Assembly: GCA_905181885.1 (NCBI GenBank)
Contig: CAJIZI010000001.1
Coordinates: forward strand, 434,001 to 498,000
DNA: 64,000 bases
From: an uncultured Gammaproteobacteria bacterium
Lineage (GTDB): Bacteria > Pseudomonadota > Gammaproteobacteria > Nitrosococcales > Methylophagaceae
Direction of reading: 5' to 3'
Shown: positions 44,203 to 56,725 of the stretch, piece after piece
How the letters are laid out: each line of letters opens with the position of its first letter
Position numbering within the stretch: the first letter of the stretch is position 1
Translations under genes and position numbers: made by a program
The notes under the pieces: model-generated
What the model was told of the DNA's origin: nothing
Database searches by the model: none
What the model saw: only the letters and a program-made list of their open reading frames with translations

Positions 44203-44976
44203 TTACTTAACGCTCTGAAATGCACGAACCGTAATAAATAGTCCTATCACAATCATAGGTAATGACAAGATTTGGCCCATAGTGATCAAATCTAAGAGTA
44301 AATAGCCATATTGCTGGTCAGGAACGCGCACAAATTCAACCACGAAACGGAAAAAACCATACCCTAATAAAAAAAGACCTGAAACAGCTCCTGGTGGCTT
44401 TGGCTTAGCAGAATATATCCACAGGATTAAAAATAATAAGACACCTTCAAGCATAGCCTCATAGAGCTGGGATGGGTGTCGGGCAAGCGGACCAGCATTT
44501 GGGAATATCATGGCCCATGGCACATCACTTACTTTTCCCCACAACTCACCGTTGATAAAATTACCGATCCGTCCAAAAAACAAACCTACGGGGACCATCG
44601 GTACGATAAAATCGCTAATTGAGAAATAAGATTTACCCGTGGCTCTCGCAAAAAAACCAAATGCTATCACTACACCTAATAGTCCCCCATGAAACGACAT
44701 CCCTCCTTGCCAAACTTTGAATAAGTTCAATGGGTTGTCGATCAGCGCAGGGAGGTCGTAAAACAACGAGTAACCAAGGCGGCCACCCACAATCACCCCA
44801 ATGGCACCATAAAACAACAAGTCCTCCACTTCCACTGCAGTCCAGCCAAATCGTTCGGCCCTTAGCCGCCCAAGCCACCAAGCTCCAGAAAAACCGAGCA
44901 AATACATTAAGCCATACCAGTGGATCTGAATTGGGCCTAATGACAAAGCCACGGGATCAATTGTTGGATAAATCAT
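44203..44976 (-). CDS. lgt: Prolipoprotein diacylglyceryl transferase
   Basis: Inner-membrane enzyme of 257 residues that transfers diacylglycerol from phosphatidylglycerol to the lipobox cysteine of prolipoproteins. Seven hydrophobic helices are evident. The Lgt signature [13 protein letters not shown] is present, as are the conserved [12 protein letters not shown] at the N-terminus and [11 protein letters not shown], which holds essential residues. It is upstream of mnmG on the same strand, separated by 136 bases. In many relatives lgt pairs with thyA, which is absent here. Confidence 0.97.
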
Positions 44977-45089
44977 ACAAATCTCTCAAAAATGTGGCTA
45001 AATGGATACAAATTGGACGAAACAACATATAAAAGCTAGCTCATCTTCTCAATTGTCGTTAACATAACGACCCATTGTCTTGTTAAAAA

Positions 45090-45104
45090 TGCACTAAATT
45101 AGCA
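45090..45104 (+). promoter_or_regulatory. TGCAC dyad, possible enhancer half-site upstream of porin 1
   Basis: TGCACTAAATTAGCA is a short dyad (TGC ... GCA), 113 bases upstream of the porin 1 sigma-54-like element. NtrC sites have the form TGCACC-N5-GGTGCA; only the left half agrees and the spacing is 2 bases short. It is listed because an equivalent TGCAC lies 110 bases before the sigma-54 element of porin 2. NtrC binding is an inference. Confidence 0.25.
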
Positions 45105-45202
45105 TATTAAAGGCAAGTCTACTGCGCTAGGATGTCTTCTTCTTTGAGTATAGGATAAATTAGATAGTAATATCGATAGAAACGTTACCAATTAAGAATA
45201 AA

Positions 45203-45219
45203 TGGCGCGCATCATACTT
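45203..45219 (+). promoter_or_regulatory. Degenerate sigma-54-like promoter of porin 1
   Basis: TGGCGCGCATCATACTT aligns with the sigma-54 consensus TGGCACGN4TTGCW. The -24 GG is present, but the -12 GC is replaced by AC at the correct 12-base distance. It is clearly paralogous to the better element before porin 2 (shared CGCATC and a downstream TCAGTCTG). It lies about 70 bases before the start codon. Activity may be weak or lost. Confidence 0.4.
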
Positions 45220-45289
45220 TGGTCAGTCTGTTTAAACAAACAAACCAAAATATATACGAACAATAACTTTAATTTTCCAGGAGACGGAA

Positions 45290-46048
45290 ATGAAACTGAA
45301 ACAATTATCTAGTCTTTGCCTAGCAGCAAGCACATTAATGGCGGCTTCTTCAGCAATGGCATGGGAAAGTGCTGATGGTCAACACTCAACTAGCGCTAGC
45401 GTCGCACTTTCTAGTGACTACATGTGGCGTGGTGGATCACAAACTGATAATGAAATGGCCTTGTCTGGTAGTTTTGACTACGGACATGCTTCTGGTTTTT
45501 ATGCTGGTGCTTGGGCTTCAAACGTAGATTTTACTGTTGGTACTGACAAGGCTCACCTCGAAGTTGATGTATATGCAGGTTATACATTTGAAGCATACGA
45601 TGGCATTGCTTATGACTTGGGTATGATGCGGTATGTCTTCACAGGTACGGATGGAGTTGACTGGAATGAATATTATGCGGCAATAAGCTACAGCGCATTC
45701 AGTCTTAAAGTTTCTCATACTGAAGACTTTGGCGGTAAAGATGAAAAAGCAACACACTATTTACTAGGCTTTAACTATGACCTACCTATGGATGTTGCAC
45801 TTCATGTGAATTATGCTTTCTATGACTTTGATGACATTGACAAAGTAATGGGGACGTCACCTAACAAAATAGATAACCCACTTCAGGATTATGCGATCGG
45901 CGTATCTAAACATATGGTTGGCCTTGACTGGGATGTTACTTACTTTGAGACACTGAAAGAAGGTAAAAATGCTACTGAGAACGGTAATGCCGGCTCAAGT
46001 AACAAGTCTGATAGCAGGTTCGTACTAACTGTTTCTAAATCATTCTAA
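45290..46048 (+). CDS. TorF-family putative porin (porin 1)
   Basis: Outer-membrane beta-barrel protein of 252 residues with a signal peptide cleaved near AMAWES (about 23-25). The mature part alternates aromatic and polar residues, begins DGQHSTSASVALSSDYMWRG and ends with the barrel-closing FVLTVSKSF (terminal Phe). The SSDYMWRG-SQT start and the G-FYAG-WASNVDF segment mark the TIGR02001/TorF family of putative porins. These often sit near glnK-amtB or other nutrient-uptake genes; the substrate is not known. It is a paralogue of the next gene. Confidence 0.85.
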   Translation: MKLKQLSSLCLAASTLMAASSAMAWESADGQHSTSASVALSSDYMWRGGSQTDNEMALSGSFDYGHASGFYAGAWASNVDFTVGTDKAHLEVDVYAGYTFEAYDGIAYDLGMMRYVFTGTDGVDWNEYYAAISYSAFSLKVSHTEDFGGKDEKATHYLLGFNYDLPMDVALHVNYAFYDFDDIDKVMGTSPNKIDNPLQDYAIGVSKHMVGLDWDVTYFETLKEGKNATENGNAGSSNKSDSRFVLTVSKSF

Positions 46049-46078
46049 ATCTGATTTAGTAATACTCAAGCTTTATAA

Positions 46079-46117
46079 AAAGGGCGGCTATCTGCAAAGA
46101 TAACCGCCCTTTTTTTA
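46079..46117 (+). terminator. Rho-independent terminator after porin 1
   Basis: AAGGGCGGCTATCT, a GCAA loop, then AGATAACCGCCCTT and a T-run (46111-46117). The stem has 13 or so pairs with one G-T pair. It lies about 30 bases after the porin 1 stop, so porin 1 is a single-gene unit. Confidence 0.88.
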
Positions 46118-46215
46118 CCCTTTTTACTCCCCCCTAAACTCTACACCTCATAAATCATCCTCTTTTTGTTCACAAAAAATTATATCTCTCCGCTCCAAAA
46201 TGCCTTAAATCTAAC

Positions 46216-46232
46216 TGCACCTTTATAGGTCA
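46216..46232 (+). promoter_or_regulatory. NtrC-like enhancer half-site upstream of porin 2
   Basis: TGCACCTTTATAGGTCA has a perfect left half of the NtrC consensus TGCACC-N5-GGTGCA, while the right half (GGTCA, spaced by 6) is imperfect. It lies 110 bases upstream of the sigma-54 element, the usual enhancer distance. With glnK-amtB two genes downstream, nitrogen control is plausible but inferred. Confidence 0.35.
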
Positions 46233-46325
46233 GAACTTGATAATACCGCACCAGCACTACCCACAAGATCCAAATAAAACTATAATAAAAACCGTAAACT
46301 ACTGTTTTATAATGCTTTATAATCA

Positions 46326-46341
46326 TGGCACGCATCCTGCT
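46326..46341 (+). promoter_or_regulatory. Sigma-54 (RpoN) promoter of porin 2
   Basis: TGGCACGCATCCTGCT matches the RpoN consensus TGGCACGN4TTGCW at every position but one, with GG and GC exactly 12 bases apart (46327 and 46339). It lies about 85 bases before the porin 2 start. Combined with the downstream glnK-amtB genes, it suggests control by nitrogen status. Confidence 0.75.
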
Positions 46342-46424
46342 TTATCTTCATCAGTCTGAACTTTAAATATGGCCAGGTCCCTATGTGAGTTCAAACGATA
46401 AACCTATAATTCAGGAGCTTAAAA

Positions 46425-47069
46425 ATGAAAATGAAAAAACTATCAACACTTTGTTTAGCGGCAAGCACTTTAATTGCTACTTCAACTGTAATGGCATGGG
46501 AAAGCGCAGATGGTCAGCACTCGACAAGTGCCAGTGTGGCGCTCTCTTCTGACTATATGTGGCGTGGCTATTCTCAAACAGACAGTGAGCCTGCTATTTC
46601 AGGCAGCCTAGACTATGGGCATGCAAGTGGCTTTTATGCTGGTACTTGGGCATCAAATGTAGACTTTTCAGATAGTAATAACAATCAAGCTCATATTGAA
46701 ATTGATGCTTACGCAGGTTTTTCTAACGAACTCGGCGGTACGGGCATTGGGTACGACCTTGGTGTCTTGCGCTATATGTACCCTGGTACTGACAGTCTAG
46801 ATTGGAATGAATATTATGCCTCTCTAAGCTATAGCATCTTTACTGCTGGTATTGCATACACAGATGAAATTTATGGTGGTGATAAAGATGCAACCTATTA
46901 CTCTTTAGGCTTTGGCTATGATCTTCCGATGAATGTCGCATTAAGTGCTAACTATGGCTATTACGATGATGAATCTGCAGATAATAACCCAACTGATTAC
47001 AGCATTGGCCTTTCTACAGAGATGGTTGGTTTTGGTTTGGACCTGACCTATACCGATACTGATAGCTGA
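46425..47069 (+). CDS. TorF-family putative porin (porin 2), frameshifted near the C-terminus
   Basis: Paralogue of the preceding porin, of similar length. The signal peptide and first 70 residues are nearly identical (SADGQHSTSASVALSSDYMWRG, then GYSQTDSEPAISGSLDYGHASG). The frame stops at 47067-47069 after TDTDS. One base later, a second frame reads GEALYGENIADGRLIFTVSKSL up to a TAA at 47137-47139, exactly the missing last beta strands. Removing one T at 47067 restores a 237-residue protein. As read, the barrel would lack its terminal strand and probably not assemble. Regulation is by the sigma-54 element upstream. Confidence 0.83.
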   Translation: MKMKKLSTLCLAASTLIATSTVMAWESADGQHSTSASVALSSDYMWRGYSQTDSEPAISGSLDYGHASGFYAGTWASNVDFSDSNNNQAHIEIDAYAGFSNELGGTGIGYDLGVLRYMYPGTDSLDWNEYYASLSYSIFTAGIAYTDEIYGGDKDATYYSLGFGYDLPMNVALSANYGYYDDESADNNPTDYSIGLSTEMVGFGLDLTYTDTDS

Positions 47070-47154
47070 TGGTGAAGCACTCTATGGTGAGAATATAGCC
47101 GATGGGCGCCTAATTTTCACAGTCTCAAAATCGCTCTAATAACTAATTATAAAA

Positions 47155-47190
47155 GAGGTCTCCTCGCCATAGGCAGCGAGGCCTCTTTTT
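47155..47190 (+). terminator. Rho-independent terminator between porin 2 and glnK
   Basis: GAGGTCTCCTCGCC, a short loop, then GCGAGGCCTCTTTTT with a T-run. The stem is long, with one bulge. It lies just 18 bases before the glnK start. I see no separate promoter between it and glnK, so glnK-amtB may depend on read-through of this hairpin or on a promoter overlapping it. Confidence 0.75.
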
Positions 47191-47204
47191 AAACGAAGGA
47201 ATAA

Positions 47205-47546
<342 letters not shown>

Positions 47547-47564
47547 TTAAAAGGACACAATAAA

Positions 47565-48833
47565 ATGGAAGATCAAATTTTCCAGCTCCAGTATGCTATG
47601 GACACATTCTATTTTCTAGTTTGTGGCGCACTAGTTATGTGGATGGCAGCTGGCTTCTCTATGCTAGAAGCAGGCCTTGTCAGAGCTAAAAACACTACTG
47701 AAATTTTAACAAAAAATGTCATGCTTTTCGCAATCGCTTCTACGTCTTACTTAGTAGTCGGTTATGACATCATGTACGGCGGCGGTTTATTTCTCACAGG
47801 AATAGATGGTGGTGACACCTTAGTTGCTGATGCACTTGCTGCATCTGCTGAAGCAGGGTTCGATGGCGGATCTGTATACTCAGGTGCATCTGATTTCTTC
47901 TTTCAAGTTGTATTTGTAGCTACTGCAATGTCAATTGTATCTGGTGCGGTTGCTGAAAGAATGAAACTTAGCGCTTTTGCCTTTTTTGCAATTGTCATGA
48001 CAGCGTTCATTTACCCAATGTCAGGAGCTTGGACATGGGGCGGTGCATCTGTATTTGGCCTATTTTCACTAGGTGATGACTTTGGCTTTCTTGATTTTGC
48101 AGGTTCAGGAATCGTTCATATGGCAGGTGCAGCTGCAGCTCTTGCTGGTGTTATCTTATTAGGTTCCCGTAAAGGAAAATATGGCGCAAACGGTGAAGTG
48201 AAACCAATTCCTGGTGCAAACCTACCTCTAGCAACACTTGGTACTTTCATCTTGTGGATGGGCTGGTTTGGCTTTAATGGTGGTTCAGTCTTAAAATTAG
48301 GTGATATCGCAAGTTCAAATGCTGTTGCAATGGTCTTTTTAAATACCAATGCTGCGGCTGCTGGTGGTGTTCTTGGTGCTTTAATTATTTCTAAAGTACT
48401 CTTCAATAAAGCCGATTTAACTATGATTTTGAATGGCGCTTTAGCAGGCTTAGTTGCCATCACTGCTGGTCCGGATACACCCACACCTGTTGTTGCAACA
48501 TTAATTGGTGCCGTCGGTGGTGTTTTGGTTGTCTTCTCTATCATGATGATGGATAAATTTAAAATAGATGACCCAGTCGGTGCAATTTCGGTCCACGGCG
48601 TCGTCGGTCTATGGGGATTATTAGCAGTACCATTAACAAATAGTGATGCAAGCTTTATAGGTCAAATAGTTGGCGCTGCAACCATATTTGTGTGGGTCTT
48701 TGGTGCGAGCTTCATTACCTGGCTAGTTTTGAAAAAGGTTATGGGCATCCGTGTCAGCGAAGAAGAAGAGGCTGCAGGGGTAGACATAAGTGAGTGTGGT
48801 ATGGAGGCATACCCAGAGTTCACAGACAGATAA
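47565..48833 (+). CDS. amtB: Ammonium transporter AmtB
   Basis: Ammonium channel of 422 residues with about 11 membrane helices. The N-terminal WMAAGFSMLEAGLVRAKNTTEI and DFAGSGIVHMAGAAAALAG segments are typical. The twin histidines of the pore are in GIVHMAG and SVHGVVGLWGLLAV. Unlike E. coli AmtB, I see no cleavable signal peptide: the protein starts with a polar MEDQIFQLQYAMDTFYF. It forms an operon with glnK and is followed by a strong terminator. Confidence 0.95.
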   Translation: MEDQIFQLQYAMDTFYFLVCGALVMWMAAGFSMLEAGLVRAKNTTEILTKNVMLFAIASTSYLVVGYDIMYGGGLFLTGIDGGDTLVADALAASAEAGFDGGSVYSGASDFFFQVVFVATAMSIVSGAVAERMKLSAFAFFAIVMTAFIYPMSGAWTWGGASVFGLFSLGDDFGFLDFAGSGIVHMAGAAAALAGVILLGSRKGKYGANGEVKPIPGANLPLATLGTFILWMGWFGFNGGSVLKLGDIASSNAVAMVFLNTNAAAAGGVLGALIISKVLFNKADLTMILNGALAGLVAITAGPDTPTPVVATLIGAVGGVLVVFSIMMMDKFKIDDPVGAISVHGVVGLWGLLAVPLTNSDASFIGQIVGAATIFVWVFGASFITWLVLKKVMGIRVSEEEEAAGVDISECGMEAYPEFTDR

Positions 48834-48860
48834 TAAACTCTTAGCATTTTAAACCAATAA

Positions 48861-48896
48861 AAGGGCGGCTCGATACCTTCGAATCGCCCTTTTTTC
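48861..48896 (+). terminator. Rho-independent terminator after amtB
   Basis: AAGGGCGGCTCGA and TCGAATCGCCCTT form a stem with a small internal mismatch, followed by a T-run to 48895. It lies 27 bases after the amtB stop and shares AAGGGCGGCT with the porin 1 terminator. Confidence 0.85.
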
Positions 48897-49027
48897 ATCC
48901 AGATTTTCATTCATAATCAAGTTAGTCTATTATTTGGTATAACCCTTATCTTCGAAAAAAAGATAATGCCAGCCATTACAGAAAAGCGTAAAATGGCTGG
49001 ATACAGAACAACATGACATAAAACTCT

Positions 49028-49630
49028 ATGATAAATATCGACTTAATCAACACAACTCCCCTAAAAATGCAGCCCTTTCCATACTTTACCATTGAGCAAT
49101 CCATGCTTGATAAAGAGTTAATGGGGCTTGTACAAAACTTTCCAATAATCAATAGCGGTGGCAGCTTCAACAAAGAAGATCTTGAGCTCAGTGAGCACTA
49201 TCACTCTCTTCACGATTCATTAGATTCAGACTCTTTTCGCCAAGCATTATCTGAAAAGTTTAAAGTCAATGTAATAACATCACCAATAATGCTCACCTAT
49301 CGTGGGTTCTCACGGACTAAAGATGGACGTGTTCACACAGATTCAAAAACAAAGCTACTCACTATTTTGATCTACTTTAACGATGGGTGGGCAGCACAAA
49401 GCGGTAAATTACGCATTTTAAACAGTGATGACATGAATGATATTGCTGAAGAAGTAAACCCAACTGCCGGCTCCATGGTCGCCTTTAAAGTCACGGACAA
49501 CTGCTGGCATGGCTATCCTTCATTTGAAGGTACTCGCAATGCAATTCAGGTTAACTTTTTAGCCAATGAAGCTGCTAGCAAAAAACATAAGTTCTTCCAT
49601 AAAATAAGCGCCAAACTAAAGTCTCTTTAA
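49028..49630 (+). CDS. 2-oxoglutarate/Fe(II)-dependent oxygenase, function unknown
   Basis: Protein of 200 residues with the iron-binding facial triad of the 2OG-Fe(II) oxygenase superfamily: His103-x-Asp105 in GRVHTDSKTK and His161 in NCWHGYPSFEG. Arg170 (GTRNAIQVNFL) is placed to bind 2-oxoglutarate. The strand pattern between (LLTILIYFNDGW, GSMVAFKV) fits the double-stranded beta helix, as in prolyl hydroxylase-like members. The substrate is unknown; some close families act on sugars, lipopolysaccharide or small metabolites. It stands alone between amtB and the convergent hemE, so context gives no clear role. Confidence 0.78.
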   Translation: MINIDLINTTPLKMQPFPYFTIEQSMLDKELMGLVQNFPIINSGGSFNKEDLELSEHYHSLHDSLDSDSFRQALSEKFKVNVITSPIMLTYRGFSRTKDGRVHTDSKTKLLTILIYFNDGWAAQSGKLRILNSDDMNDIAEEVNPTAGSMVAFKVTDNCWHGYPSFEGTRNAIQVNFLANEAASKKHKFFHKISAKLKSL

Positions 49631-49689: not shown

Positions 49690-50758
49690 TTACTTATGAT
49701 ATTGCTCACTTAGCCGATGAACAGAATCGACTAGTCGTGTCATATTCTCCGGGTCAACTGTCGGGTGAATACCATGTCCTAAATTAAAAACATGCCCAGT
49801 CTTACCCTCTCCAAAACTAGCTAAAACACTAGAAACTTCTTGTTCCACTCGGTCCGGAGAGGCATAAAGTACACAAGGATCCATATTACCTTGAAGCGTC
49901 ACTTTATTACCTATACGTTGACGTGCAGAACCGATATCAGTAGTCCAATCCAACCCAACACCATCCACTCCAGTATCGGCCATTACCTCTAACCATTGCC
50001 CCCCCCCTTTCGTAAATAATGTAACAGGCACTACTCTGACCATCATTTTCACGTGTTAGCCCTGCCACAATTTGCTGCATATAGGCTAAAGAGAATTGCT
50101 GATAATTACTTTGGCCCAGTGCCCCACCCCATGTATCAAAAAGCATAATCGATTGGGCGCCGGCAGCAATTTGAGCATTTAGATATGCAATAACTGATTT
50201 AGCTAAAACAGCTAATAATGCATGCATTTGCTCAGGCGCATCGAACATCATCCCCTTGACCTTGGCAAAATCTTTACTCGACCCTCCTTCAACCATATAA
50301 CAAGCCAAAGTCCAAGGGCTACCACTGAAACCAATCAAAGGCACTTTCCCATTTATTTCACGACGAGTAACACGAATTGCATCCATCACATATCGCAAAT
50401 TATCTTCCATATCAGGCACGCCCAATTTGGCAATATCTGCAGCACTACAAATAACATTTTTGAATTTTGGTCCTTCTCCAGGGACGAAATGAAGCCCTAA
50501 ACCCATCGCATCAGGAATAGTCAAAATATCTGAGAATATAATAGCGGCATCCAAATCATAACGGCGTAAGGGCTGTAAAGTGACTTCACACGCGAGGTCT
50601 GGTGTGCTGCATAGGGTCATAAAGTCCCCTGCTTTTGCCCTTATTTCACGATATTCTGGCAAATATCGGCCGGCCTGACGCATAACCCATACAGGAGTCT
50701 TATCTACAGGCTGTCCTAACAACGCTCTCAAATAACGGTCATTTTTTAATTCAGACAC
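49690..50758 (-). pseudogene. hemE: Uroporphyrinogen decarboxylase, interrupted by a one-base insertion
   Basis: HemE decarboxylates uroporphyrinogen III to coproporphyrinogen III. The start at 50758 gives the correct N-terminus ([36 protein letters not shown]), continuing to ENDG near residue 240. There the frame shifts: it goes on with unrelated residues to a stop at 49937, while the true C-terminal half continues in another frame to 49690 ([21 protein letters not shown] ... HRLSEQYHK). Removing one base near 50037-50038 restores a 355-residue enzyme, the family length. All motifs are intact on both sides, so error or very recent mutation is likely. Loss would block heme synthesis, though hemC and hemD are intact here. 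Confidence 0.88.

Positions 50759-50810: not shown

Positions 50811-56725
<5,915 letters not shown>

Follow-up and report, generated by a model that had tools for sequence, protein, structure and literature searches.

A sigma-54 (RpoN) -24/-12 promoter, TGGCACGCATCCTGCT, was identified at positions 46326-46341 of the window (the whole 64,000-nucleotide stretch that was analysed) by motif match, score and conservation in a sister species, G022. It precedes the second of two tandem TorF-family porin genes, porin 2, which is followed by glnK and amtB. We consider it very likely that this element drives a nitrogen-starvation operon made up of porin 2, glnK and amtB, which would be activated by NtrC and RpoN and in which porin 2 would act as a cation or ammonium channel. 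Sequence comparison establishes the promoter, the gene order, their conservation and the retention of the promoter after porin loss. The promoter, its relict counterpart, the NtrC-like sites, the four genes and the three hairpins described below are all on the plus strand.

The locus opens with porin 1 (45290-46048; TIGR02001, E 5.2e-45), a tandem TorF paralogue about 60% identical to porin 2 that lies outside the sigma-54 unit. Porin 2 (46425-47069; TIGR02001, E 5.7e-49) belongs to the TorF/Gcw_chp family. At 153.9 and 166.9 bits against a TIGR02001 cut-off of 47.15, porins 1 and 2 are both members, and both also match PF09694. The porin 2 frame stops at 47069, and a family-like C-terminus, DGEALYGENIADGRLIFTVSKSL, is found in another frame, up to 47139. 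Next come a glnK-type P-II regulator gene (47208-47546; PF00543, E 1e-32) and, adjacent on the same strand, a gene for an ammonium transporter of the marine Amt subtype (47565-48833; TIGR03644, 660 bits, cut-off 514; PF00909), which confirms the neighbours named in the preliminary description: a TorF porin (TIGR02001), then P-II, then Amt. Against the GlnK equivalog model NF007946 the P-II protein scores 175.7 bits, below the cut-off of 181, and against the AmtB equivalog model NF007947 the transporter scores 154.8 of 657 bits, so the two are classed as P-II and Amt members and not as equivalogs. Downstream of amt, past a terminator-like hairpin, window positions 49028-49630 encode a 2OG-Fe(II) oxygenase-like protein (PF13640).

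The sigma-54 motif that had been proposed, TGGCACG-CATC-CTGCT, is present at 46326-46341 with a GG-GC distance of 12 bases. It is the sole exact match to TGGCACRN5TGC on either strand of the window, and in the organism's own 1.5 Mb genome the pattern TGGCAYRN5TGCW gave 7 matches, compared with 2 for a reversed control pattern. With an approximate matrix, TGGCACGCATCCTGCT scores 17.4 bits, a value that 200 resamplings of the 400-bp region before porin 2 never reached. Both the sigma-54 matrix weights and the NtrC consensus are approximate rather than trained; shuffles were first-order Markov or mononucleotide resamplings. Weak sigma-54 matches (2 mismatches or fewer) were not enriched in the window (95, with 97 expected), so the case for sigma-54 depends on the single site at 46326-46341 and on its conservation. 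Judged by its sequence, the promoter before porin 2 is very probably functional.

An NtrC-like half-site, TGCACC, had been placed 110 bases upstream of the promoter. The hexamer is indeed found there, at 46216, but it is actually the left arm of a weak dyad, TGCACCTTTATAGGTCA (46216-46232; dyad 1), which agrees with 9 of 12 positions of the consensus tested, TGCACC-N5-GGTGCA. The window holds 21 17-mers as good as dyad 1, or about 0.07 per 200 bp. A second NtrC-like site, CGCACCAGCACTACCCA (46247-46263), starts 31 bp, approximately three helical turns, past the start of dyad 1; it matches 7 of 12 positions, a level that occurs about 2 times per 200 bp of the window, and is weak alone. These values, 9/12 and 7/12, fall towards the weaker end of the range across loci; relatives often do better, and the dyads at porin 2 look decayed by comparison. 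Of a possible 15.8, dyad 1 scores 11.9 here and 10.7 in G022.

Motif and gene-order searches of relatives, which had been suggested as checks, supported both features: the sigma-54 site and NtrC-like dyads recur before glnK-linked porins, and the porin-glnK-amtB order is conserved, together with the promoter, in many related loci. Among the best-scoring matches in relatives, window included, a TorF porin lies directly before glnK in 27 of 31 loci. Of these 27 porins, 25 have a site of at least 12 bits upstream; it lies 76-118 bp from the start codon at 23 loci and 216-217 bp away at the other two, L014 and L028. L016 and L029 fall below the 12-bit threshold. None of the four relatives' loci without glnK (L003, L009, L010 and L011) has a sigma-54 site.

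The same pattern was scored in a pooled set of 142 loci, which are the best-scoring of each search and not all matches: 31 from relatives (27 linked to glnK), 24 from a class sample of 140 genomes (12 linked), 80 from named genomes, where they were the top-scoring of 589 matches (36 linked), and 7 taken from 23 plasmid records, none of them linked. For each locus the scan took in the 330 nt before the start of the porin match, and dyads were sought upstream of the best-scoring sigma-54 position. Two loci were left out, L002 for belonging to the tandem already entered as L001 and L063 for want of upstream sequence, which was also too short at the linked locus L058. Five loci that are short downstream were counted apart, with the site in 3 of the 5, and L102, counted as unlinked, is really porin-amt-glnK. 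A sigma-54 site of at least 12 bits was present before 70 of 74 glnK-linked porins and 14 of 62 unlinked porins, against an expectation from shuffles of 1.2 per group (Fisher p 3e-19, a guide only since loci share ancestry). Three linked loci proved to be duplicates, one DNA listed under two identifiers, and without them the site is present in 67 of 71 distinct linked loci, window included; those without it are L016, L029, L057 and L130. Looser clustering of the upstream DNA, at 80% identity, merges 9 pairs of 141 loci. Linked carriers of the site include Janthinobacterium, Parazoarcus, Thauera, Sulfuritalea, Microbulbifer, Halioglobus, Methylophaga and HTCC2148. Methylophaga thiooxydans DMS010 (L156) and Janthinobacterium sp. 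CG3 (L122) are culturable bacteria with this arrangement.

NtrC-like dyads scoring at least 12.3 of 15.8 were found at 54 of 74 linked loci (1.6 expected), compared with 6 of 62 unlinked loci (1.1 expected). Measured from the T of TGG, the best dyad starts at -133, at -113 to -110 or at -82 to -79 in 37 of the 53 linked loci with both kinds of site. Judged from the positions themselves, this spacing looks like helical phasing, with the sites facing one side of the helix. Relatives often carry better dyads about 110 nt upstream of TGG, and the position at about 79 nt is also occupied. The neighbours of unlinked porins, inspected by eye, included no common downstream partner. Other arrangements were also noted, two of them with genes for other nitrogen compounds. 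A Pseudoalteromonas TorF porin (L081) lies beside the choline/betaine genes betA and a BCCT transporter, and the TorF porin of L066 lies beside an Amt-like protein, without glnK. In L059, positions 516-1916 (oriented) form one 467-residue frame with two TorF matches, possibly a double porin, and a sigma-54 site and an NtrC-like dyad scoring 12.1 are located upstream.

The preliminary description held that the promoter controls porin 2. A sigma-54 promoter with NtrC-type sites does precede this gene, but it appears to serve the whole of porin 2-glnK-amtB, as indicated by G022 and by the empty gaps between porin and glnK. In G022 the gene order is porin 1, promoter, glnK, amt, and porin 2 is absent (locus L036, G022:C10, 2230-2598). 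The G022 site, TGGCACGTATCCTGCT, lies directly before glnK and differs by one base, inside the N4 spacer. Of 75 porin-glnK gaps, two were too short to score, and a sigma-54 site of at least 12 bits was found in 0 of the 73 scored. Consequently, glnK-amtB most likely relies on the promoter upstream of the porin, and G022 together with the lack of a second site in the scored gaps led us to reject porin 2 as a stand-alone unit.

Porin 1 was considered as a second sigma-54 target and rejected. Upstream of it, at 45203-45218, is a likely sigma-54 relict, TGGCGCGCATCATACT, that scores 8.0 and has lost the -12 GC; the corresponding place in G022 likewise has no -12 GC. Tandem TorF porins in four relatives (L046, L047, L048 and L049) carry the site only before the glnK-proximal copy, their upstream copies scoring 8.3 or less. 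TorF tandems before glnK run to two or three copies (L046-L049; window 45290-47069). A terminator-like hairpin 3′ of porin 1 (46077-46114; dG -23.0 kcal/mol, z -5.4) probably sets this gene apart from the porin 2 operon as a separate unit.

Two further hairpins were found at the locus, one in the gap that separates porin 2 from glnK (47151-47189; dG -22.3 kcal/mol, z -5.6), inside the proposed unit, and a terminator-like one 3′ of amt (48859-48893; dG -19.5 kcal/mol, z -5.35). All three hairpins are strong and are followed by T tracts. A consensus terminator scan of 44900-49000 returned 2 sites, fewer than the shuffle mean of 3.0; it listed the hairpin that precedes glnK but neither the one 3′ of porin 1 nor the one 3′ of amt. 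A hairpin with a T tract is present in 35 of 75 linked porin-glnK gaps, a few of the 35 being weak, and a fold z below -2 was obtained for 28 of 66 linked gaps versus 1 of 70 control stretches taken inside porin genes. A terminator-like hairpin in this position could cut glnK-amtB off from the promoter. The hairpin at 47151-47189, which may lower glnK-amtB, is probably a partial terminator or an mRNA-stability (3′-end protection) element that would keep porin mRNA above glnK-amtB mRNA.

It is less likely than not that the promoter belongs to glnK-amtB alone, with the porin travelling along as a passenger that plays no part in nitrogen uptake. G022 fits such an arrangement, having lost porin 2 and retained promoter-glnK-amtB, and it argues against a need for porin 2, as this species does without it and keeps porin 1. 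In Herbaspirillum seropedicae, furthermore, glnK and amtB have described roles, and none is described for NlmA, the product of the gene that precedes them. Against a passenger porin, the porin-first order recurs with the promoter in both gamma- and betaproteobacterial loci, and two TorF porins that are not followed by glnK have sigma-54 and NtrC sites of their own, although these are only 2 of 62 unlinked porins. In L072 the porin is divergent from glnK-amtB and has its own strong sigma-54 site and NtrC-like dyads; in L074 it has both kinds of site and no glnK within the 1.5 kb flank. Judging by these two loci, a TorF porin may be a regulon member independently of glnK-amtB; a sigma-54 site that comes without an NtrC dyad in L076 (below) points the other way.

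The operon reading names NtrC as the activator. It is rather unlikely that the sigma-54 promoter answers instead to another enhancer-binding protein, or that NtrC control is fading in a reduced genome. The dyads are poor both here and in G022, ntrC was not found in G022 at E <= 1e-150 (G022 is 84% complete), and a first look gave 9 NtrC-family candidates in this genome, compared with at least 18 in 27 of 28 genomes of the same genus. An Acinetobacter baumannii record (L076) has a TorF porin with a strong sigma-54 site, TGGCACAGCAATTGCT, no glnK nearby and no NtrC dyad; this porin may respond to an activator other than NtrC. In contrast, strong dyads at set positions are frequent in relatives, and the ntrC of this genome (G000:C3:380355-381717), found as neighbouring pieces in two frames that cover query residues 1-387 and 390-455, encodes products sharing 82% and 79% identity with the NtrC of a relative before and after the frame break. 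The weak dyads here and the weaker dyad 1 in G022 are consistent with NtrC control that may be relaxing in this lineage. The genome also encodes rpoN (TIGR02395, E 2.9e-146), and its glnA, named by Pfam, is preceded by a sigma-54-like site of 12.1 bits, with an NtrC-like dyad (9/12) 68 bp upstream of that site. A strict sigma-54 match at G000:C1:343357-343372, just upstream of the rpoN match (343452), possibly reflects autoregulation or chance.

The frame breaks in porin 2 and ntrC are probably sequencing indels in the assembly. Two other genes named by Pfam, hemE (49690-50758) and gltB (52243-56725), are frame-split in the window, 2 of the 16 G022 frames found there, and the hemE break is close to a run of C. 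Because both are intact in G022, sequencing indels are a likelier cause than four decaying genes. If the breaks were real, NtrC would be left without its DNA-binding part and porin 2 without its last strand.

A chance sigma-54 match, with transcription from sigma-70 promoters, is extremely improbable and was rejected. Sigma-70-like hexamers are present, but about as often as in shuffles (13 found, shuffle mean 10.7), and against chance stands the conservation of the sigma-54 site, which G022 shares and which 67 of the 71 distinct linked loci carry ahead of their porin.

What porin 2 may do was considered through the fold of an orthologue and the charge of the family. The L128 orthologue, which shares 79% identity with porin 2, is predicted to form a barrel of about 12 long strands (pLDDT 85.8). 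The model aligned with 4pr7_A (Z 16.3, rmsd 2.4, 163 aligned) and 2wjq (Z 15.5, rmsd 2.7, 177 aligned), and the closest solved folds among the chains compared are the KdgM/NanC monomeric 12-stranded porins, at a sequence identity of 9-14%; a profile search of PDB sequences gave no match at E <= 1. KdgM/NanC porins carry acidic sugars. TorF proteins are strongly acidic, and a shared fold does not amount to a shared function. In a rough assignment of inward residues, 11 of 61 are acidic and 2 are basic, and such an acidic lumen would favour cations. Charge was rejected as a mark of ammonium specificity, as acidity is family-wide and about equal in linked and unlinked porins (medians per 100 residues -13.3, n = 70, versus -12.1, n = 64; p 0.03). 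Acidity taken together with the operon context makes ammonium or a small amine the leading candidate substrate.

The proposal that TorF-family porins take part in nitrogen acquisition held up in part. The link to nitrogen has a precedent in the NtrC-dependent nlmA-glnK-amtB genes of H. seropedicae; that the porin itself carries a nitrogen source is an inference. A nitrogen role for porin 2 is plausible, and the conserved porin-glnK-amtB arrangement suggests, short of proof, that this channel may assist cells in taking up nitrogen when it is scarce.

The H. seropedicae report describes nlmA-glnK-amtB as NtrC-dependent and apparently co-transcribed, with amtB::lacZ 21-fold up in nitrogen limitation; NlmA, of unknown function, was detected in membrane extracts and thought to be ‘most probably in the periplasm’ (PMC3023670). 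The nitrogen link is thus already known there, under another gene name. Hsero_0083 (98251-99039), just before glnK at 99052, should be nlmA, judged from its position, and in rice roots Hsero_0083, glnK and amtB are all induced, with table values of 15, 43 and 20 (PMC6646362). Janthinobacterium sp. CG3, from the same family as Herbaspirillum (Oxalobacteraceae), has a TIGR02001 porin in the nlmA position (E 8.6e-59), with TGGCACGCATTCTGCT and CGCACCATTGCGGTGCG upstream, and by analogy NlmA would be a TorF porin; Herbaspirillum itself is absent among the best 80 of 589 TorF matches in named genomes. The two operons share a membrane-protein gene directly before glnK-amtB; NlmA was not recognised as a porin in that report, whereas the gene here encodes a TorF porin.

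The classical glnK-amtB operon under NtrC and sigma-54 is that of E. coli (PMC3224663). The promoter type, the type of regulator sites (weak dyads here) and the glnK-amtB pair are the same, and the present locus differs in having the porin first, a hairpin before glnK and a marine-subtype Amt. A PII-Amt-OmpL cluster is described in Flavobacteriales and viruses, and its authors state that the association was found only in Flavobacteriales (PMC8115048). There too an outer-membrane barrel gene adjoins a PII-Amt pair; however, the phylum is another and the OmpL porin lies downstream of amtB; the likeness noted is one of gene arrangement. Gcw-chp is tabulated as class 1.B.71 with 12 strands (PMC4827864), and torF is listed as a TMAO reductase system porin of Shewanella (PMC5955497); members here, in contrast to that listing, adjoin ammonium genes. 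A literature search, whose coverage mostly excluded subscription papers, found among the entries listed no report tying TorF, Gcw_chp or TIGR02001 to glnK or amtB.

In the proposed operon, ammonium limitation would lead phosphorylated NtrC to bind at two sites, about 97 and 128 bp ahead of the transcription start expected near 46352, and bound NtrC would activate RpoN-polymerase at 46326-46341. Porin 2 would be made most, and presumed read-through of the hairpin at 47151-47189 would yield less GlnK and AmtB. As a 12-stranded channel of the outer membrane whose lumen is probably acidic, porin 2 would pass ammonium or another small cationic nitrogen compound to the periplasm for AmtB.

We tentatively extend this to glnK-amtB-linked TorF porins in general, which might constitute a dedicated outer-membrane stage of ammonium or small-amine uptake within the NtrC regulon of beta- and gammaproteobacteria. 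If so, the outer membrane, and not only AmtB, would limit nitrogen uptake in nutrient-poor water, with cells building a cation-favouring channel for this uptake, and Flavobacteriales would have evolved a parallel PII-Amt-porin cluster. Herbaspirillum NlmA would probably be identified as an outer-membrane porin, not a periplasmic protein as its authors supposed. A large porin family, for which we found no assigned substrate beyond TMAO respiration, gains a testable setting in nitrogen starvation, beside an ammonium transporter, and the question of whether the outer membrane limits ammonium uptake at low concentration becomes directly testable.
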